31,523 nucleotides of DNA. It comes from a virus. Made by a program: the position numbers and the translations under genes. The notes under the pieces were generated by a model. The model saw nothing but the letters and a program-made list of their open reading frames with translations. It had not been told where the DNA came from and did not search any database. The stretch covers positions 1-31,523 of the IMG/VR virus record IMGVR_UViG_3300050014_000790. One strand, written 5' to 3'. Shown in pieces: positions 2,392 through 31,523 of the stretch. Position 1 is the first letter of the stretch. Every line of letters starts with the position of its first letter.

Positions 2392-2759
2392 GAGCACAAT
2401 TTGTAAGAAGGGAAACCAATCCTTTTAAAACTTTAAGAATAGGACATTATCAAGTATTGGCACAAATACTCTGGGATGCTCCGGACGAAGGGGATCTACA
2501 GGATAATGAAAATATTGCATATCTTGATATTGATTTTCCATATTATGATCCTGAACTTGATACAATGATTGATAATTGGATAAAAGAAGGGGATTTATTA
2601 GATAAAATTCCTGAAGAAAAAATTCTTTATCTAACAGAAATTGGACCTATTCTTGCAGTGGAAAATCAGGGTTATGGGCCTTCTTATTTTGCTCATATAG
2701 AAACCAAAGAAGAGATTGAAAAAATACTTGGCCGAAAGATAAAAGGCTTTGACGACTAA
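2388..2759 (+). CDS. Unknown small acidic protein with the shared PxxTLxIG motif
   Basis: 123 residues, function not recognised. Translation is probably coupled to thioredoxin through an ATGA overlap. The N-terminus carries VRRETNPFKTLRIG, which aligns over 14 positions with a motif also found in the proteins at 9318, 20400, 20801 and 22190. The remainder is acidic and mixed alpha/beta, with no signal peptide, membrane segment or cysteine motif. It is the last gene before a strong terminator, so it closes the first operon. Real coding is supported by the tight packing and intact frame; a role cannot be assigned. Confidence 0.75.
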   Translation: MRAQFVRRETNPFKTLRIGHYQVLAQILWDAPDEGDLQDNENIAYLDIDFPYYDPELDTMIDNWIKEGDLLDKIPEEKILYLTEIGPILAVENQGYGPSYFAHIETKEEIEKILGRKIKGFDD

Positions 2760-2809
2760 TAAGCAGGCTTAGTGTTCTAGCAACTCAAAATTTAACAAAA
2801 TTTAATTGA

Positions 2810-2846
2810 AAAAAGATGGAAAAATGCAAAACTTTCCATCTTTTTC
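2810..2846 (+). terminator. Intrinsic terminator between the thioredoxin operon and gp32
   Basis: A perfect 13-bp stem pairs 2810-2822 (AAAAAGATGGAAA) with 2833-2845, around a 10-base loop; the right arm ends in a run of five T. It lies 50 bases past the stop at 2759 and 88 bases before the gp32 start. Because the arms are A- and T-rich it could terminate from either side. Confidence 0.75.
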
Positions 2847-2933
2847 GTGATATATATACTACACTAATAAACTACTAAGGTACCTAAAAAGTTTACGAGT
2901 CTTTCTATTAATTAACTAAAATTTCTTTCTATT
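2847..2933 (+). promoter_or_regulatory. Leader of the gp32 gene: TATA-like box and unstructured AU-rich RNA
   Basis: A TATATATAC box at 2851-2859 resembles the TATATAAA boxes upstream of other transcription units here. The rest of the leader is AU-rich, shows no strong hairpin and holds a 10-base direct repeat, CTTTCTATTA, at 2901-2910 and 2925-2934, the second copy touching the start codon. In T4, gp32 represses its own translation by binding an unstructured leader next to a folded element; a similar arrangement is possible but not shown. Confidence 0.4.
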
Positions 2934-3938
2934 ATGAGTCAAGAGAATTATGATGCTTTCTTAAATCCTGGTGTAGAAGCACCAGCAGCTTCAGCAAAAC
3001 AGACTGAAGAGTACAATCCATCCGCAGACAAAGGCAAAGGCGGAATCTACCAATCAATCATTCGTTTCGTTCCCTGGCATGTTGATCCAAAACACGGTTC
3101 AATCCAGGAAAAATGGGTTTCATATTTAGTTGATCCCCTAACTCAGCGTGGTCGTTATATTGACTGCCCTTCCTCGGTTGGAAAACCTTCACCACTTTCA
3201 GACATTTATTGGAAATTAAAGAAACACGAGAGTGTTCAGATGCAGAAACTTGCTCAGAACTTTTCACGTAGGCATTCATATGCTTCTTTAATCCAGGTCA
3301 TTCGTGATGAAAACAATCCAGAACTTGAAGGCAAGATTATGGTATTCCGTTATGGCGTAAAAATCTGGGAAAAGATTAATGCTGAACTTAAACCAGTTAT
3401 TGGTGAAGCTCACGATCCATTTGCAAGTTTAACCGGCAAGGCATTCGCACTTGTTATTACTAAGGTTTCCGGATTCAACAACTATGATCAGTCAAAATTT
3501 GTTGATAAAAGAATTCCTCTTTGTATCCCAAATGAACTTGGAAAACTTATTCCAATCACTCCTCAGAGCGATATGAAAGCTGTTTTCGAATGGGTAAAAG
3601 CTAATTCACCAGACCTATCCAAATACGCTTACAAAGAGTGGGATCAGGATACATTCGACTATGTTAACCACGTCATCTTATCTGTTACTGGCGAAGGCTC
3701 AGTTTCAAATAAATATGCCGGAATTGTTACCAAGGAAAATGCAAAGCCCGCTACTCAAGCACAGACTGCTAAGGCACCCGCCGGAAATGCAATCAGTGCA
3801 CAGGAAATTTCAATTGATAACCTTGACTTAGGTGAAGGTAATGCAATTGACGATCTTCCAGATTTCGATGCTCTTCCAACTGGACCAACCAATGTAAATG
3901 GGTTAGGTGACTTGGATGACATTATCGGTAACATGTAA
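2934..3938 (+). CDS. 32: Single-stranded DNA-binding protein, T4 gp32 family
   Basis: 334 residues (T4 gp32 has 301). Two blocks are diagnostic: ENNPELEGKIMVFRYGVKIW (about 123-142), matching the T4 block around ENEGKVFKYRFGKKIW, and KVSGFNNYDQSKF (about 178-190), matching KVSGFSNYDESKF. The C-terminus is Ala/Pro-rich and then acidic, ending GDLDDIIGNM like the T4 DDTDLDDLLNDL tail that recruits replication and recombination partners. The OB-fold core covers and protects ssDNA at forks and during UvsX/UvsY recombination. The region where T4 gp32 has its zinc ligands keeps only one cysteine (IDCPSS, about residue 82), so the zinc site seems lost. First gene of the replication operon; primase follows after seven bases. 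Confidence 0.93.
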   Translation: MSQENYDAFLNPGVEAPAASAKQTEEYNPSADKGKGGIYQSIIRFVPWHVDPKHGSIQEKWVSYLVDPLTQRGRYIDCPSSVGKPSPLSDIYWKLKKHESVQMQKLAQNFSRRHSYASLIQVIRDENNPELEGKIMVFRYGVKIWEKINAELKPVIGEAHDPFASLTGKAFALVITKVSGFNNYDQSKFVDKRIPLCIPNELGKLIPITPQSDMKAVFEWVKANSPDLSKYAYKEWDQDTFDYVNHVILSVTGEGSVSNKYAGIVTKENAKPATQAQTAKAPAGNAISAQEISIDNLDLGEGNAIDDLPDFDALPTGPTNVNGLGDLDDIIGNM

Positions 3939-3945
3939 TTAACCC

Positions 3946-5058
3946 ATGTCTGATACCCTACAAACTTTCGGAGAGGTGAATTTCGATTCATCTCTCTCGG
4001 ATGTTTTAGATGTAGCTGTAAGTCCTCAGGAATACAAGGACCGTGCAGTTAGTCTTCTACATTCCATAGTGGATCGTAGGTTTCCGAATGACAGAGCTAA
4101 AAGAGAAGTAAGAGCCCACACAGACAGAATAACATTTTCTTGCCCGTATTGTGGTGACTCTATGCAAATGTCTTGGAAGCAAAGAGGCAACATTATTTTA
4201 CAGGGTAAACACAAACATCACTTTAAATGTTTCAATTGCGGAACATACAAAGGTGTTAATGAATTTTTTCAAGACTTTCAGGTGGACCTCCAACTGGATG
4301 TTATAAATTACATTACACAAACTCAATCAGATTTTACAGGAACATCCCACTTTGCAAAGTATGATATATCTTTACTGTTGGATGTTAAAACAATAGAGGA
4401 ATATGCCATTGACAGACAGGAGATTAAAAAACGCTTCAATTTGGTTGAAGGAAAAGGATCTCCTGCCTGGACATGGTTAAATAGGAGACTTCAGTTTCAA
4501 GAGGACAAGTTTCTTTATAGCCCATCAAAAAATTATCTCTTGATCCTTAATCTTACCCCAAGTGGTAAAGTAATTGGATTTCAAAAACGAAATTTCGGGA
4601 AGTACCAAACTAAATATCTTACGTTTACACTTCCAACAATATACAAAATGATGGGGATAGTTAAAGAAATTCCCGTCGAAATTGATTCACTTTCCCCATT
4701 ATATGGAATTTGTTTCCTAGATTTCAATAAACCTATTACACTATTTGAAGGTCCATTGGATTCCTTCTTGCTGAAAAACTCTGTTGCAAACACAGGAGCT
4801 AATAAAGGATTTCCTATAGATTTACCATTACGGTATTTTTATGACCAGGATCCTACAGGCAAAAAGAATTCCATTAAAAAAATGAGTGAAGGATATTCGG
4901 TATTTTTATGGTCTAAATTTCAGAGTGCCGTGGGTTTTCCATATCGTAAAAAATGGGACTGGAATGACATTCTTATATGGGCTAAAGAAACTAATACCAA
5001 ATTACCGGATATAAGTATGTTCTTTAGTGATAATCAAATGGATTTAATTGATCTATAA
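3946..5058 (+). CDS. 61: DNA primase (zinc finger plus Toprim, gp61-like)
   Basis: 370 residues. An N-terminal zinc ribbon has CPYC at 66-69 and CFNC at 95-98, which recognises the template in this class of primases. A Toprim catalytic domain follows, with FEGPLDS (267-273, Glu268 the metal-binding acidic residue) and FYDQD (298-302, the DxD pair), then KKWDWNDIL (335-343), a sequence common at the end of phage and bacterial primase Toprim domains. It would make RNA primers for lagging-strand synthesis with a replicative helicase not present in this window. Position directly after gp32 fits a replication operon. Its stop overlaps the next start as TAATG. Confidence 0.88.
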   Translation: MSDTLQTFGEVNFDSSLSDVLDVAVSPQEYKDRAVSLLHSIVDRRFPNDRAKREVRAHTDRITFSCPYCGDSMQMSWKQRGNIILQGKHKHHFKCFNCGTYKGVNEFFQDFQVDLQLDVINYITQTQSDFTGTSHFAKYDISLLLDVKTIEEYAIDRQEIKKRFNLVEGKGSPAWTWLNRRLQFQEDKFLYSPSKNYLLILNLTPSGKVIGFQKRNFGKYQTKYLTFTLPTIYKMMGIVKEIPVEIDSLSPLYGICFLDFNKPITLFEGPLDSFLLKNSVANTGANKGFPIDLPLRYFYDQDPTGKKNSIKKMSEGYSVFLWSKFQSAVGFPYRKKWDWNDILIWAKETNTKLPDISMFFSDNQMDLIDL

Positions 5059-5234
5059 TGGAAAAGAAACTCACGACTAAATTAAGGTTTACCTTTGATA
5101 TAGATGAGGAAATTCCTGTTGTAGAAATTACTCCGCTTGATGAAAAAGATAGTAAGAAAAAAGAAATTATAATACTTAAGCCTAAACAAAATGGAAGAGA
5201 CTCCAGTTCAAACAGCAGTCCCCGACTCTTTTGA
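5058..5234 (+). CDS. Small hypothetical protein (58 aa)
   Basis: 58 residues starting at the TAATG overlap with the primase stop and running 44 bases into the next gene. The first 43 residues are charged (FDIDEEIPVVEITPLDEK, then a Lys-rich run and a short strand IIILKP). The Ser-rich last residues lie in the overlap and are probably constrained by the other frame. It fills an otherwise empty 132-base gap between primase and the UvsY-like gene, which supports its reality. Function not recognised. Confidence 0.5.
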   Translation: MEKKLTTKLRFTFDIDEEIPVVEITPLDEKDSKKKEIIILKPKQNGRDSSSNSSPRLF

Positions 5235-5727
5235 TGAGTTCATGAAGGATGTTCCAGATGTTGCTCCTCCAATAACACCTGATACAGATCCTGAAACACA
5301 ACCCGGAACAATGGCAGAAAGATTTCTTTCTGAACGTATTCAATGGACAGCCAAGATAAAAGAACTCGGAGGCAAGATGAAAAATATTGTCGATATGTCT
5401 TCTTTAATGACGAACATATATACGGAAAGACAGATCGCTGTAGAATATCATTACTATTTGCTTACTCTTTTACAGAAAGTGAATAAAAATTATAGAAAAC
5501 AATATGCTGAAAAATACGATTATTATACTTACAAATCTCAAAAGAGATTTCCCAATGAACGAAACAAAGAGATCCAGATTATGTCGGAACTCGGTCCTAC
5601 TCTTACCACTAAAGAAGCGTTAGAAAATCATGCAAAATTTATGGAAGATACTATAAAGACTGTTGATCAGGTCATATTTGGTATTAAGGCTAGAGTGGAA
5701 ATTGAAAATATGTTAAGAGGAAAATAA
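5191..5727 (+). CDS. uvsY: Recombination mediator, probably UvsY-like
   Basis: 178 residues, mostly helical. A Pro/acidic N-terminal extension of about 40 residues precedes the core. The C-terminal half, with KYDYYTYKSQKRF (about 108-120), a conserved KEIQIMSELGPTL block and the ending IKARVEIENMLRGK, follows the T4 UvsY pattern of a DYY segment, an acidic helix and a final IKxRxxxIxxMxxxxxGK. UvsY helps UvsX displace gp32 from ssDNA. Context supports the call: in T4 uvsW and uvsY are neighbours, and here UvsW lies two genes downstream and gp32 upstream. Identity is low, so this is a moderate-confidence assignment; no UvsX is in the window. The stop overlaps the next start (TAATG). Confidence 0.6.
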   Translation: MEETPVQTAVPDSFDEFMKDVPDVAPPITPDTDPETQPGTMAERFLSERIQWTAKIKELGGKMKNIVDMSSLMTNIYTERQIAVEYHYYLLTLLQKVNKNYRKQYAEKYDYYTYKSQKRFPNERNKEIQIMSELGPTLTTKEALENHAKFMEDTIKTVDQVIFGIKARVEIENMLRGK

Positions 5728-11600: not shown

Positions 11601-11626
11601 AAAAAAGGAGCTTAATAAGCTCCTTT
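11601..11626 (-). terminator. Bidirectional intrinsic terminator
   Basis: A 10-bp stem, AAAGGAGCTT at 11604-11613 with AAGCTCCTTT at 11617-11626, closes on a three-base loop. On the minus strand it is followed by six T, a canonical terminator for the secreted-protein gene ending at 11633. On the plus strand it lies eight bases after the 10634 gene's stop and has a weaker T run, so it probably stops both convergent units. Confidence 0.85.
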
Positions 11627-11632
11627 CTAGTG

Positions 11633-14053: not shown

Positions 14054-14578
14054 TCAAAAATCCAGCAGTGCTGGATTTTTTGTTTTGTTTTTATTCCAGG
14101 GAATTTGTCCAGTTTTCTTTCCTTTATTAACATTGGGGGTTCCCTTATTAATCTTTTTTAAAATATTTTTTTGGCCTTCTGTCATAGGGATTCCTTTATT
14201 CCAAGGAATCTGATTTTTATTATAATCTTTACCAATATGAGATTTACTCATCTTATCTCGAGTTTCTTTTGAAATGCTATCCTTTGCTTGATGACCGCCT
14301 TTAGGACTTATATTATATCCATGAGGTTTTAAAGTATTGTATTGAATAATATACCTTTCTTGAGCATCAAAAGCTTTTTGTTTTGTTGGAAAAAATTCAA
14401 GAATTTCTCTTTTAAATTTTTTTCGGCCATATTTTTTCCTTGCATTTTCGAAATAATTGCCACTTCCCAAATAGTTTTTTGTATGCCAACAATTTAAATC
14501 ATCGGTAGAATGATCTCCAACATACTGTTTTCCATCAACAATATTGGTAGTAATATAAACAAAGTTAAATTTTTTCAT
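14054..14578 (-). CDS. GIY-YIG homing endonuclease
   Basis: 174 residues on the minus strand. KKFNFVYITTNIVDGKQYVG gives both signature strands, followed by NYLGSGNYFENARKKYG, FDAQERYIIQYNT with the catalytic Glu, and GYNISPKGG. A short DNA-binding tail has NUMOD3-like pieces (ISKETRDKMSKSHIG) and two copies of a QIPWNKG/QIPWNKN element. The catalytic domain is clearly paralogous to those at 12886 and 8461. It is inserted convergently behind the 13416 operon, and its final codons are embedded in that operon's terminator. Confidence 0.92.
   Translation of the reverse strand: MKKFNFVYITTNIVDGKQYVGDHSTDDLNCWHTKNYLGSGNYFENARKKYGRKKFKREILEFFPTKQKAFDAQERYIIQYNTLKPHGYNISPKGGHQAKDSISKETRDKMSKSHIGKDYNKNQIPWNKGIPMTEGQKNILKKINKGTPNVNKGKKTGQIPWNKNKTKNPALLDF
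14056..14085 (+). terminator. Intrinsic terminator of the 13416-14037 operon
   Basis: An 11-bp perfect stem, AAAAATCCAGC at 14056-14066 with GCTGGATTTTT at 14070-14080, has a three-base loop and is followed by TGTTTTG. It lies 18 bases after the small gene. The same bases, read on the other strand, encode the last residues (PALLDF) and stop of the convergent endonuclease. Confidence 0.85.
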
Positions 14579-19734: not shown

Positions 19735-19760
19735 AAACCCCCCTTTATTGGGGGTTTTTT
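19735..19760 (+). terminator. Intrinsic terminator after the acidic protein gene
   Basis: AAACCCCC (19735-19742) pairs with GGGGGTTT (19750-19757) around a seven-base loop and runs into six T. The G/C-only core stands out in this AT-rich DNA. It lies 17 bases past the stop at 19717. Confidence 0.9.
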
Positions 19761-23031: not shown

Positions 23032-23063
23032 CTATAAACTTTAACCAATAAAAAAGTTTATAG
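23032..23063 (+). promoter_or_regulatory. Hairpin directly before the dUTPase start codon
   Basis: A perfect 11-bp inverted repeat, CTATAAACTTT (23032-23042) and AAAGTTTATAG (23053-23063), has a 10-base loop and ends two bases before the ATG at 23066. No T run follows, so it is not a normal terminator. It would block ribosome access to the start or form an operator. Confidence 0.55.
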
Positions 23064-23065
23064 AA

Positions 23066-23758
23066 ATGGCTGAATCAATAATTAAATTCTTAAAAACACG
23101 TGATGTTAAATCTCCAACCAGAGGTTATCAAACTGATGCTGGCATAGATTTCTATGTGCCTAAATTTGTTCCTACCTTTATTAAAGATCTTAAAGAAAAG
23201 AATCCCGCTATTTTTGCTCCAAAAGAAAATCCTTATTCGGGAAATCTTTATATGAGTAGCAATGGTTGTGTAACACTTACCAATGGATCTGAAAAGAATG
23301 CTCCTTCAGTAACTTATGATCTTAAAGATGATAATGATACTCTATTCAAATTTGATGAAACAAAAGGAAAACCATATTTCCTATTAATGCCTCATTCAAG
23401 AGTAAACATTCCATCTGGAATTAAATCCAAAATGCTAAAAGAAGGAAGAGCTCTTATTGCAGCTAACAAATCTGGTGTTGCAACTAAACAGGGTCTTATA
23501 TTTGCTGCTCAGGTTGTAGATTATTCTTATACTGGCGAAATTCATATTGGAGTTATTAATACTTCAACAAAAGTCGTTAGAATATACGAAGAAGACAAAC
23601 TTATTCAGTTTGTAGAAACCCCTGTCTATACTTCTAAAATAGAAGCTTTCGAAGAAATAGCTATGACGAAATCTGATATAGAGGAATTTTGGGGAAATAT
23701 TCCTCAGGATCGTAAAGATGGCGGATTTGGTTCAACCGATAAAACTCCAGTAAAATGA
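23066..23758 (+). CDS. dut: dUTPase (trimeric dUTP diphosphatase family)
   Basis: 230 residues, longer than the usual 140-170. Conserved motifs in order: I, AGIDFY (25-30); a strand SRVNIPSGIK (111-120) equivalent to the VPTGI region; II, NKSGVATKQGL (134-144); III, VDYSYTGEIHIGVIN (151-165); IV, KLIQFV (178-183); V, GGFGSTD (219-225), the mobile C-terminal arm. An insertion of about 60 residues lies between motif I and the SRVNIPSG strand. It hydrolyses dUTP to dUMP and pyrophosphate, keeping uracil out of DNA and feeding dTMP synthesis. It opens the nucleotide operon and is coupled to the next gene by ATGA. Confidence 0.93.
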   Translation: MAESIIKFLKTRDVKSPTRGYQTDAGIDFYVPKFVPTFIKDLKEKNPAIFAPKENPYSGNLYMSSNGCVTLTNGSEKNAPSVTYDLKDDNDTLFKFDETKGKPYFLLMPHSRVNIPSGIKSKMLKEGRALIAANKSGVATKQGLIFAAQVVDYSYTGEIHIGVINTSTKVVRIYEEDKLIQFVETPVYTSKIEAFEEIAMTKSDIEEFWGNIPQDRKDGGFGSTDKTPVK

Positions 23759-25301: not shown

Positions 25302-25543
25302 TGAATCCTTTACCAACTCAAGACGAAAATCCCAGTGGATTTCACCAAAGGTATGAAATCTATAAAACAGATGGGGAACCAGTTGATCCTAATGCTGAAT
25401 ACTTTGTACTTAGGTTAGATAGGGGAGGCAACGATCCAAAGCATATCGAAGCTTGCAGACAAGCAATACGGGTATATGCCATAGCAATACAAGATCACTT
25501 GCCTACTTTATCAATGGATCTTCTCCAGAGATATTCTGATTAA
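25301..25543 (+). CDS. Conserved-looking small protein of unknown function
   Basis: 80 residues. The core DPNAEYFVLRLDRGGNDPKH continues to IEACRQAIRVYAIAI, a compact strand-turn-helix pattern that I have the impression recurs in phage genomes as a small domain of unknown function. No catalytic motif is evident. It is the last gene of the dUTPase operon: its stop codon forms the foot of the following terminator. Confidence 0.75.
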   Translation: MNPLPTQDENPSGFHQRYEIYKTDGEPVDPNAEYFVLRLDRGGNDPKHIEACRQAIRVYAIAIQDHLPTLSMDLLQRYSD

Positions 25544-25562
25544 GCCCTCCGGGGCTTTTTTT
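25542..25562 (+). terminator. Intrinsic terminator of the dUTPase operon
   Basis: AAGCCC (25542-25547) pairs with GGGCTT (25552-25557) around the loop TCCG, followed by T at 25556-25562. The left arm overlaps the stop codon TAA at 25541-25543. Confidence 0.88.
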
Positions 25563-27786: not shown

Positions 27787-30330
27787 ATGGGAGAACGTTA
27801 TACGGAAGGTCAATTGAAAGAGATTGGCCTTCAATATTTTAACAAGGATCTACTAGCGACAAATGTGTGGCTGAAAAAATACGCATTAAAAGAAAAAAAT
27901 ACAGAAAATTATTTAGAAAAATCCCCAGACGAAACTATTCAAAGAGTTGCTCATGAAATTCACAGAATTGAGCAAAAATATAAAAATTCCCTATCTTACG
28001 AAGAAATTTATGATGCTTTAAAGAATTTCGGTAAATTCATTTTTGGAGGTTCCATATTGTTCGGTGTTGGCAATAAAGACCAGGTATCATCTTTAGGTAA
28101 CTGCTTCTTTATTGATAATGGAGCGGATTCTTATGGAGGTATCTTTAATATTGATGAATCCCTTGTCCAATTAATGAAAAGAAGGGGAGGTGTTGGAATT
28201 ACCCTCGAACATCTTAGACCGGCATCAGCTGGAGTCAATAATGCTGCTCAGTCTTCTACTGGAGCCACTTCTTTTATGGATCGATATTCCAACTCGACTA
28301 GAGAAGTAGCACAGGATGGCCGAAGAGGGGCTCTAATGATCACTATGCACGTGAATCATCCCGACATCATAGATTTCATTATGAAAAAAGATGACTTAGC
28401 TAAAGTGACGGGAGCTAACGTCAGCGTGAAGGTTACAGATGAGTTTATGAGGGCAGTAGAGAATGATGAAGATTATGTTTTAAGATTTCCCGTTGAGAGT
28501 GTTCAGCCTCATTTAACCGAGCAACTTTCATATAACAAACTCCATAAAATGGAGGATGGAACCTATGTCAGGCGAGTTAAAGCAAGAGAAGTTTGGAATA
28601 CAATTGTAAGACAAGCTCATAAAAATGCAGAACCAGGAGTTCTATTCTGGGATAATGTTATCAAAGAATCCCCTGCAGATATGTATGCCGATTTAGGCTT
28701 TAAAACATTGGGGACAAATCCTTGCGGTGAAGTTCCTTTAAGTCCTTATGATTCATGTCGTTTAGGCAGCATCAATCTTTACACACTTGTTGAAGACCCA
28801 TTTACCCCAGATGCTCAGATAGATTGGTCTGAATTAGCTTATCGTGCTCATCTTGCCCAAAGATTCATGGATGATATAGTTGATTTGGAAGAAGAGAAGA
28901 TTATTCAAATTATAGCTAAAATTGATGCAGATAAAGAACCCGACTTTCTCAAAAGAGTTGAAAAAGACACATGGGAAAAGGTTCTTGATGTTCTAAGAAA
29001 GGGAAGAAGAACTGGTATTGGTGTTTTGGGTCTTGGGGATATGTTAGCAGCTATTGGAGTAAAATTTGGAACCCCAGAAGCTACTAAGATTGCCGAAGAA
29101 ATTCAAAAAATCATTGCTGTTAATTCATACAGGGAAAGTGTTAAACTTGCTGAAGAAAGAGGATGTTTCCCAATATGGAATGCCGATAAAGAAGCTGGCA
29201 ATCCTTTTATCCGAAGAATCATAAGTGAAAACTTCGACAATAAAGAATACAAAAATTATCTTGTTCATGGTCGAAGAAATATTGCTACCATATCAATTGC
29301 TCCAACGGGAACTTTAGCTCTTATTTGTCAGTGCACATCAGGTATCGAACCTGTGTTCAAAATATTCTACAGACGAAGAAGAAAAATTAATCCAAACGAA
29401 ACCGGTACAAAAGTTTCTTTCACCGATGAAAATGGCGACTGCTGGGAAGAATATAATGTTATTCACTATCCTTTTATTACTTGGTTCCAAATGCAGGAAA
29501 CTCGCTTTACTTTTAATGGGGCAAGGACATTCTTAGAAGGATTAGATGAAGAAGCATTTGAAAAATTAGTAGCTACCTCGCCATGGGCTGGAGCAGAATC
29601 CCATGCAATTGATTATATTGAAAAGATCAAGATGCAGGGTGCTATTCAAAAATGGGTTGACCACTCAATCTCAGTTACTCATAACTTACCTGAAAAGATT
29701 ACTCTTAAGGAAGTTAATGACATTTATTTTCAAGGATGGAAATCCGGTTGTAAGGGTCTTACTATTTATAGAGAAGGATCCAGAATGGGGGTTCTCATAT
29801 CTAAAAAAGAAGTTGAGGATTTTAAAGAAAACCATGCTCCAAAACGTCCTAAAACTCTTGAAGCAGATTACTTTGTTGTGACTGTTAAGGGGATTAAATT
29901 TGCTGTAATTGTTGGATTGTGGCCAAAAACAAATAGACCCTTTGAGGTTTTTGCTTTTGAAAATCCGCCATCACTTAAAAACACCAGAGGTGTTATTACA
30001 AAAGTTAAAAAAGGCCATTACAAGTTTGTTAATGGAGAATTTGAAATACCAAACCTGAACTTAGCAGCTGGTAGGGTAGAAGAGAGAACATTAACTCTTT
30101 CTGCTTCTATGTTGCTTCGTCATGGTGCACCAATCAAGTATGTAAACCACGTAATCACCAAAATCGATGAGAATGTAACTTCGTTCTCGTCAGCTCTTCG
30201 AAGATGCCTAACCAAGTATATTGATGAGCCAGAAGGAGAAGTCTGCCCTAATTGCGGAGAAAAATTGATAATGCAAGACGGGTGTGTAAAGTGTTTTAAT
30301 GAAGATTGTGGTTATAGCCGTTGTGGTTAA
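27787..30330 (+). CDS. nrdJ: Class II (adenosylcobalamin-dependent) ribonucleotide reductase
   Basis: 847 residues. The ten-stranded barrel catalytic site is present: SSLGNCFF (first redox Cys106), NPCGE (311-315, with the thiyl-radical Cys313 plus Asn311 and Glu315) and SCRLGSINL (Cys324, partner of 106). The APTGTLALICQCTSGIEPVF block (about 511-530) is typical of NrdJ. The C-terminal region, after about residue 695, has the NrdJ-type extension ending in CPNC and four further Cys, which relays electrons from thioredoxin. Length and absence of a class Ia/Ib pattern and of a small-subunit gene nearby support class II, which uses B12 instead of a radical-carrying partner and works with or without oxygen. 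It converts ribonucleotides to deoxyribonucleotides for phage DNA. Confidence 0.93.
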   Translation: MGERYTEGQLKEIGLQYFNKDLLATNVWLKKYALKEKNTENYLEKSPDETIQRVAHEIHRIEQKYKNSLSYEEIYDALKNFGKFIFGGSILFGVGNKDQVSSLGNCFFIDNGADSYGGIFNIDESLVQLMKRRGGVGITLEHLRPASAGVNNAAQSSTGATSFMDRYSNSTREVAQDGRRGALMITMHVNHPDIIDFIMKKDDLAKVTGANVSVKVTDEFMRAVENDEDYVLRFPVESVQPHLTEQLSYNKLHKMEDGTYVRRVKAREVWNTIVRQAHKNAEPGVLFWDNVIKESPADMYADLGFKTLGTNPCGEVPLSPYDSCRLGSINLYTLVEDPFTPDAQIDWSELAYRAHLAQRFMDDIVDLEEEKIIQIIAKIDADKEPDFLKRVEKDTWEKVLDVLRKGRRTGIGVLGLGDMLAAIGVKFGTPEATKIAEEIQKIIAVNSYRESVKLAEERGCFPIWNADKEAGNPFIRRIISENFDNKEYKNYLVHGRRNIATISIAPTGTLALICQCTSGIEPVFKIFYRRRRKINPNETGTKVSFTDENGDCWEEYNVIHYPFITWFQMQETRFTFNGARTFLEGLDEEAFEKLVATSPWAGAESHAIDYIEKIKMQGAIQKWVDHSISVTHNLPEKITLKEVNDIYFQGWKSGCKGLTIYREGSRMGVLISKKEVEDFKENHAPKRPKTLEADYFVVTVKGIKFAVIVGLWPKTNRPFEVFAFENPPSLKNTRGVITKVKKGHYKFVNGEFEIPNLNLAAGRVEERTLTLSASMLLRHGAPIKYVNHVITKIDENVTSFSSALRRCLTKYIDEPEGEVCPNCGEKLIMQDGCVKCFNEDCGYSRCG

Positions 30331-30367
30331 AATTTAACAATCTTTAACTAAAACTGACATTTATCCC

Positions 30368-30410
30368 ATCCATATAATAGATAAATATTTAAATAATCTA
30401 TTATATGGAT
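30368..30410 (+). promoter_or_regulatory. 15-bp hairpin burying an endonuclease start codon, with promoter-like loop
   Basis: ATCCATATAATAGAT (30368-30382) is perfectly complementary to ATCTATTATATGGAT (30396-30410). The ATG at 30405-30407 lies inside the right arm. GATAAATA at 30380-30387, in the end of the left arm and the loop, resembles the T4 late promoter. Transcripts from upstream would hide the start; transcripts begun in the loop would not. Confidence 0.7.
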
Positions 30411-31304
30411 TTTTCTTGTGACCCTATTAAATGTTTAGAATGTGGAAAAGAATTTCCTTATTCTAATGGTTATTTTGTTTCTCATATTCGTAAAGAACAT
30501 AATCTTACCCTTCGACAATATGTTGTAAAATGGGAATATAATAATGAAGAAAATAATATTCCGAAATGTTCCTGCGGATACTGTGAAGAACCTGTTCCTT
30601 TTTATCGAGGTAATTTTCTGATTGGTCAAAAATTAAGAAAGCACCAAAATCCAGATTGGTTAAAAAAACAATATATTCAAAAGTATGGAATACCATTATG
30701 CGATTCTTGCAAAAAAGAAAATGATAATTTTCATAGAGGAATTCCACGAAAAAATTGTGAAAAATGTGTGGAGGAAGGAAAAATTAATCAGGGAGATAAA
30801 TCCCCATTTAATACTTCGTATAAATCAACAGAAACAATGAAGAAAAGATATGGAGTTGAAAATCCGGGTCAGCTGGAAATAAATAGAGAAAATTCTTCAA
30901 AAAGAATGAGCAAATATAACTCAGAATGGAAGAAAAACCATACCATACGAAAATACAAAGATACTGAATTATATTATCAATCCTCCTTTGAATATGATTT
31001 TTTGGAATTATGCGTCAAATGGGGTATTATTAATAGAATACAAAACGGCCATTCTTATAATTATCTTGATGAAGATAGAAAATTTGGTATTCGTTTAATG
31101 ACAGATTTTTCAATTGATAACTATGAGATTGAAATAAAATCATCTTATATCATGAAAAAACAAGGAGGAATAGAATCTGTGTTTGCAAAGAAAAAAGCTG
31201 TAGAATCGATAGGGAAAAAATATATCTTTATTCTGGACAAAGATTATTCAAAATTTTATTCCATTACTAAAAGCGATATATTATTCGGACCGACTTGTGT
31301 CTGA
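30405..31304 (+). CDS. PD-(D/E)XK homing endonuclease with zinc-finger N-terminus
   Basis: 299 residues. The first 45 residues form a MucR/C2H2-like finger: CLECG (10-14), His27 and His32, then LTLRQYVVKW. More Cys pairs follow at 55/57/60, 99/102 and 118/121. A central TMKKRYGVENPGQLEINREN (144-163) is a DNA-binding element common in phage homing enzymes. The C-terminal nuclease domain has SSFEYDFLEL (Glu196), MTDFSI (Asp234) and EIEIKSSY (Glu243, Lys245), the PD-(D/E)XK pattern, then IFILDKDYSKFY. It lies 74 bases after RNR behind a start-codon hairpin. Its 3' end overlaps the convergent partial gene by 49 bases. It is probably related to the truncated gene at the left edge. Confidence 0.85.
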   Translation: MDFSCDPIKCLECGKEFPYSNGYFVSHIRKEHNLTLRQYVVKWEYNNEENNIPKCSCGYCEEPVPFYRGNFLIGQKLRKHQNPDWLKKQYIQKYGIPLCDSCKKENDNFHRGIPRKNCEKCVEEGKINQGDKSPFNTSYKSTETMKKRYGVENPGQLEINRENSSKRMSKYNSEWKKNHTIRKYKDTELYYQSSFEYDFLELCVKWGIINRIQNGHSYNYLDEDRKFGIRLMTDFSIDNYEIEIKSSYIMKKQGGIESVFAKKKAVESIGKKYIFILDKDYSKFYSITKSDILFGPTCV

Positions 31305-31523
31305 TCTATCTTATATGAAAGTTCCAATGTATATTCTTTTGTAGTCCATTCCAAACTATGATAGCCTAATTTATCTTCCTTGGAAGGGGTTGGCTCAGAT
31401 TGTAAATATTTCATTATATCCCTCTTGATATTATTAATATTTTCCTCATTACCAACTATGTTACAGCCGGTTTTGTTATCGTTTATATAGTACATCGAAG
31501 AAGGGCCTTCTATAAAAGCATTT
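31256..31523 (-). CDS. Unknown protein, N-terminus beyond the window (partial)
   Basis: The minus-strand frame is open from the right edge to its stop at 31256. An internal ATG at 31495 gives 79 residues, but the frame continues upstream as NAFIEGPSS, so the true start probably lies outside. Visible sequence includes GPSSMYYINDNKTGCNIVG and IKRDIMKYLQSEPTPSKEDK, mixed alpha/beta and not recognised. The last 16 residues overlap the end of the convergent homing endonuclease gene. It is on the strand otherwise used here only by endonucleases and the secreted protein. Confidence 0.6.
   Translation of the reverse strand, partial: NAFIEGPSSMYYINDNKTGCNIVGNEENINNIKRDIMKYLQSEPTPSKEDKLGYHSLEWTTKEYTLELSYKIDQTQVGPNNISLLVME

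Follow-up and report, generated by a model that had tools for sequence, protein, structure and literature searches.

A hairpin over the start codon of a free-standing endonuclease gene behind a class II ribonucleotide reductase gene: a probable late-expression lock in a large-phage group that hardly uses Shine-Dalgarno sequences

A hairpin combined with a late promoter has been described for the endonuclease genes I-TevI, I-TevII, I-TevIII, segB of phage T4, and mobE of phage Aeh1 (PMC2988022, accessible part). For I-TevI, and likewise I-TevII and I-TevIII of T4, the hairpin in the initiation region forms only in RNA initiated upstream, and the late promoter is placed so that the late RNA lacks the 5' arm (PMC2988022, accessible part); in both respects these genes resemble what is proposed for the locus presented here. 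However, the I-TevI group is intron-encoded and its hairpin hides the Shine-Dalgarno sequence, whereas our gene is free-standing and its start codon is hidden. Free-standing endonucleases with the hairpin/late-promoter arrangement are also on record, namely Aeh1 mobE and T4 segB (PMC2988022, accessible part), and the novelty that a sequence-only reading of our locus had implied for a free-standing endonuclease was therefore overstated. According to the same part of that source, mobE lies in or beside ribonucleotide reductase (RNR) genes, and the endonuclease gene studied here lies behind a class II RNR gene; yet mobE and segB encode HNH and GIY-YIG enzymes of phages using Shine-Dalgarno sequences, while the enzyme here is of a putative PD-(D/E)XK type. 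A further parallel is the leader of T4 gene e, where the early read-through RNA is folded and silent and the late promoter is situated around the stem's 5' strand, as proposed here (PMC3014915, accessible part), but gene e encodes the lysozyme and is a lysis gene, not a mobile element. In the literature covered, mostly without subscription papers, we found no report of such a lock in a phage group without Shine-Dalgarno sequences, nor of one on a PD-(D/E)XK-type endonuclease. The control logic is thus known, free-standing endonucleases included; what is new is a version acting on a start codon without a Shine-Dalgarno sequence, an enzyme of putative PD-(D/E)XK type, and the location.

The endonuclease gene and the hairpin over its start

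The whole stretch of DNA analysed here (the window) is a virus record of 31,523 bases with 34% G+C, encoding T4-like replication proteins (single-strand binding protein, primase, UvsW-like helicase, and a partial family B DNA polymerase). Its last complete genes are that of a class II RNR, the presumed source of read-through RNA, and then a gene of 299 codons for a putative endonuclease. The features of this region are as follows, L039 being a related locus treated below.

27787..30330, + strand: class II (adenosylcobalamin-dependent) ribonucleotide reductase gene (TIGR02504 NrdJ_Z, 1.1e-148; Pfam PF02867)
30331..30404, + strand: leader between the two genes, aligning in part with that of L039 (the TAAAATTTAACAAT block and its surroundings)
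30368..30382, + strand: left (upstream) hairpin arm from the inverted-repeat search, under the proposed model only in read-through RNA
30379..30394, + strand: weak late-promoter match AGATAAATATTTAAAT, containing GATAAATA, start -26, 7.3 bits
30383..30395, + strand: hairpin loop of 13 nt from the inverted-repeat search
30396..30410, + strand: right hairpin arm from the inverted-repeat search, containing the ATG and codon 2
30405..30407, + strand: endonuclease start codon ATG, costing 9.7 kcal/mol to open in the read-through fold, the second highest value among 808 starts
30405..31304, + strand: free-standing endonuclease gene, 299 aa, with an N-terminal Cys/His zinc-finger-like region and a C-terminal PD-(D/E)XK-like domain
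30410..30417, + strand: short T-rich stretch TTTTTCTT 3' of the stem, with d -1.5 to -9.6 short of terminator strength

The PD-(D/E)XK-like residues of the encoded protein are Q192, E196, D234, and E243-x-K245, and the Q, E, D, and E-x-K of this C-terminal domain are invariant in all seven aligned homologs. Profile matches of the domain were all weak and below significance (PDB 3r3p, "Mobile intron protein", E 0.085; EcoRV, E ~0.3), but point to PD-(D/E)XK nucleases. We take 3r3p to be the catalytic domain of I-Bth0305I; the likeness concerns the C-terminal domain, while the zinc-finger-like N-terminal part, whose Cys/His pattern is common to the window endonuclease, its L039 counterpart, and a protein of phage LR756508, differs. 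Pfam DUF7487 was matched by five of the seven homologs and not by the window endonuclease, and an AlphaFold2 model, built from two sequences, was too poor for use (pLDDT 46). A single-protein scan of viral_contigs for relatives returned none, a two-row profile matched solely L039 in viral_contigs and nothing in genome_contigs, and tblastn against phage records gave two records at E 1e-5 and seven at E 10, all weak, besides one plasmid record matching 45 residues. A downstream start of the gene was ruled out, as the next in-frame ATG lies far beyond the zinc-finger-like region. At its 3' end, the gene is overlapped by a minus-strand ORF (31256-31522) that is open at the record end.

The claimed perfect inverted repeat with the ATG in its right arm was verified in every part: two arms of 15 nt, 100% complementary, enclose a 13-nt loop. 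The region 30350-30430 folds with a minimum free energy of -17.2 kcal/mol (z -4.37), which none of 200 shuffles equalled, and the hairpin exceeds in length every other perfect stem (loop of at most 20 nt) found in the window and its 260-kb relative G001. Its arm sequence occurs once in the record. An Rfam search of the window gave no family match, and an RNA family or intron at the hairpin was dropped as an explanation.

Shine-Dalgarno-like words precede only 1.6% of 809 starts in this phage group, and none is found upstream of 30405; the element hidden at the window gene is the start codon, not the Shine-Dalgarno sequence of T4-type control. Because the group hardly uses such sequences, a lock would act on the start codon itself, hiding this codon being its natural form in such a system. 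Starts of the group are enriched in A at -12, -11, and -3. Initiation in Bacteroidetes depends on mRNA structure and A-3 (PMC6847099, accessible part), and both the A enrichment and the scarcity of Shine-Dalgarno sequences are much like that report, from which we infer a host among the Bacteroidota.

The late-promoter motif and the accessibility of start codons

The octamer GATAAATA, which the sequence-only reading had placed in the loop as late-promoter-like, is present at 30380-30387, but the loop holds only five of its bases and the first three belong to the left arm. As evidence by itself it was rejected: TATAAATA with at most one mismatch occurs 103 times in the window versus 104.8 expected, so that the word is meaningless as such and its weight lies in its position relative to the motif of the group, (R)(R)ATATATAAAATAAAA about 21-28 nt 5' of the ATG. 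In the window and G001, a 16-base motif with the consensus GAATATATAAAAAAAA, mostly GAATATATAAAATAAA or GAATATATAAATAAAA, stands at a fixed distance to about 19% of 332 starts, with its start peaking at -28 to -21; 12 bits are reached by 12% of real leaders and 0% of shuffled ones. Only two of the ten longest motif-bearing genes of G001 could be given a name by match, as tail sheath and portal genes. Ten long G001 genes without the motif include a terminase and a baseplate gene; therefore, some structural genes lack a copy of their own. A T4-type gp55 (phrog_234) is encoded by the long relatives G001 and G008, two of the eight records searched, and no gp55 gene is present in the 31-kb window record or in five of the seven others, several of which are short fragments. 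Given the fixed position, the motif at the tail sheath and portal genes, and gp55 in G001 and G008, the positioned motif is very probably the late promoter of this phage group.

At the window gene the motif starts at -26, inside the usual range, and 2.9% of shuffles of its own leader score as high. When the motif model was fitted without endonuclease genes, with two endonuclease fragments (L015 2482, L019 5625) of the 23 found dropped, the site fell to 6.7 bits. By motif alignment, late transcription is predicted to start at about 30397; by the rule that we assume for T4, the predicted position would be about 30393. Scores of at least 5 were reached by 17 of 28 endonuclease genes and 153 of 779 other genes (p 3.8e-6), gene starts being those of ORFs of >=70 aa called in a simple way from ATG only, so that some are wrong or spurious. 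The cut-off of 6, which defines the 158 motif genes used below, was chosen with the weak window score already known. In the second data set, matches below 120 aa counted in neither class, and G006 (L143) was omitted as nearly identical to G005. At L127 2778, L142 10524, L021 6570, and L020 3179, the motif reaches up to the ATG, and the late RNAs of these genes may be leaderless or nearly so.

In the computed read-through fold, only one of 808 starts costs more to open than that of the window gene (median 1.2 kcal/mol). The start of L039 follows at 8.6 (rank 4 of 808) and serves as an independent check, since L039 was found via its RNR and not via a hairpin; rank 1 is held by L021 11965, a 71-aa frame whose start is probably spurious. 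Regarding the gain in accessibility when RNA starts at the motif, L039 came first and the window gene second among the 158 motif genes, both with about 10^5.7, followed by two endonuclease genes of the GIY-YIG type, L021 4693 of G001 in third place and 6158 of the window in fifth. Endonuclease genes thus make up four of the top five versus 17 of the 158 overall (hypergeometric 4.4e-4) and, without the window gene, three of the top four (p 0.003). Shuffling only the upstream part gave p 0.0066 for the window and 0.013 for L039, this test being computed for genes above 0.7 log units only. Start-codon hairpins as a general feature of endonuclease genes were unsupported, with 3 of 28 endonuclease genes versus 25 of 779 others (p 0.07) and, for the second data set by itself, 1 of 7 versus 12 of 402.

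Two kinds of further start hairpins were seen. The GIY-YIG-type endonuclease starts at window 6158 and at L021 4693 (minus strand) pair with the late motif itself as the left arm. Three dUTPase orthologs have a hairpin of differing sequence at or over the start (window 23032-23066; L015 ~18313; L004 ~230-256, the last judged by eye); the 11-bp stem of the window ends 2 nt before the ATG, while in G001 the ATG lies inside the stem. These dUTPase hairpins suggest a conserved translational control.

The 3' end of the RNR gene in relatives

A profile scan with the RNR yielded 80 loci, and L039 has the sole full-length ortholog of the endonuclease found at the RNR locus, 45% identical and directly behind the RNR gene, the same place as in the window. 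Its GTG start is held in a shorter stem, AAGCCATA (2289-2296) / TGTGGCTT (2319-2326), in the same register as in the window, and the loop contains the full canonical late motif GAATATATAAAATAAAA (from 2299). A lack of compensatory stem changes in relatives would have counted against the sequence-only reading, and L039 did not refute it: anchored at the start codon, the two stems share seven pairs, with one U-A of the window standing against G-C in L039 and another, preserved as a wobble, against U-G. Pairing in this register is 94% versus 20-42% in slid ones; covariation statistics are powerless with two sequences (what was observed was equalled or exceeded in 258 of 500 shuffles). The compensated stem is suggestive of a shared pairing around the start codon, as far as two sequences go. 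Taken whole, the L039 leader outdoes its shuffled versions in folding by no more than a modest margin (z -1.95, 11 of 200).

Loci lacking the endonuclease bear on the foremost alternative, namely that the RNR gene has its intrinsic terminator, or the leftover of one, in this hairpin, that the endonuclease start merely overlaps it, and that termination and not a buried start codon limits expression. L034 to L038, all without the endonuclease, have a strong terminator directly behind the RNR gene (best d +20 to +41; nearly identical in L035 and L036), the window stem ends in GGATTTTTC at a similar distance behind the RNR gene, and a weak terminator has been reported in the 5' end of T4 mobE itself (PMC2988022, accessible part). 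The hallmark of intrinsic terminators, a G+C-rich stem with a long T-stretch, is however not what the window hairpin shows: its stem is A+T-rich, its T-stretch short, and its d of -1.5 to -9.6 stands against +20 to +32 for three clear terminators of the same window, while the L039 hairpin at the same place has d -68 and no T-stretch. A terminator alone is thus an unlikely reading; a partial one is compatible with a lock and may act with it. Clear intrinsic terminators were noted in the window at 11602-11628, 14056-14080, 19735-19757, and 25542-25557, the last three being those scored.

Across the 83 loci with at least 80 bases behind the RNR gene, 33 have a terminator score above 0; none does in L039, LR756508, or L074, which carry the endonuclease, its relative, or a remnant, nor does the window locus, computed alongside but apart from the 83. 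A late motif before the next gene behind the RNR terminator is clear in L035 to L038. In L074, a stretch matching the endonuclease C-terminus directly behind the RNR gene (5630-5715) is a remnant and a trace of endonuclease loss. In the 484-kb phage LR756508 (L022), the gene directly behind that of the class II RNR (2725-4038) is endonuclease-like and shares the zinc-finger domain, set between different flanking domains; its product shows a GIY-YIG-like N-terminal stretch (by eye) and a C-terminus matching DUF559 (7.8e-5); this may be domain swapping around a possibly fixed target site. Elsewhere, the RNR match of L025 (LR756500) is broken by about 1.6 kb (~3964-5590), an intron, intein, or inserted gene, and a degraded endonuclease of the same family lies behind a cupin-like gene (named by eye) in G001 (L019 5625-6053). 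The leader of this fragment (L008 1036-1150) has an A+T-rich hairpin and a T-stretch just before the gene.

A putative timing switch and its meaning

We consider it probable that the endonuclease is under a timing switch of the I-TevI/segB/mobE type, silent on read-through RNA from the RNR gene and translated from late RNA. What was computed is a stem rare in this group, a motif at a set position, the gp55 of relatives, a compensated ortholog with a canonical promoter in its loop, and the lack of a strong terminator. Early or middle RNA running out of the RNR gene would carry both arms, and the 15-bp stem would bury the start codon, so that no endonuclease is made. After the onset of replication, the T4-type late machinery would start RNA inside or just after the loop, and in this RNA without the left arm the start codon would be accessible. 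The proposed T4 control logic is supported in part: L039 speaks for it with its same-register hairpin, compensatory change, and canonical loop promoter, while the promoter match of the window, with 6.7-7.3 bits, stays weak.

This weak match is also what a permanent burial of the start codon would predict, with low constant expression and a loop without any late promoter. In the same direction, a small local hairpin over the ATG still forms in the late window RNA, and since it persists the start codon is predicted to be open in only 3.5-7% of these molecules. However, L039 has the canonical motif at the same place, as does the motif occur at 17 of the 28 endonuclease genes, which makes permanent burial quite improbable. 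A reading of the palindrome as a DNA site (an operator or insertion mark), with the RNA hairpin as a by-product, appears very improbable, for although the sequence is palindromic, overlaps a promoter-like site, and has an arm sequence found nowhere else in the record, and although I-TevI represses itself via an operator overlapping its own late promoter (PMC2988022, accessible part), the L039 stem differs in sequence and length and keeps the start-codon pairing, which fits RNA pairing better.

Beyond the single gene, we advance more tentatively, as a conjecture that may well not hold, that late promoters also serve as RNA locks in this large phage group, which initiates translation without Shine-Dalgarno sequences: the promoter itself and the bases just upstream of it would pair with the start codon, all read-through RNA would be silent, and promoter-born RNA would be open, the effect being strongest in mobile endonucleases; at the 3' end of the RNR gene, the lock would have replaced a terminator present before the invasion.

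If the timing switch is real, the late lock of the T4-like phages that infect enterobacteria and Aeromonas would also exist in a distant group of large phages, there with another promoter consensus, another nuclease family, and no Shine-Dalgarno sequence. This would suggest either a long persistence or a repeated invention of this harmless way for a mobile gene to enter an early operon. The locus would then be a clean case of an invader fitting into the gene programme of its host, with a terminator in the empty alleles, a lock in the occupied ones, and one remnant.
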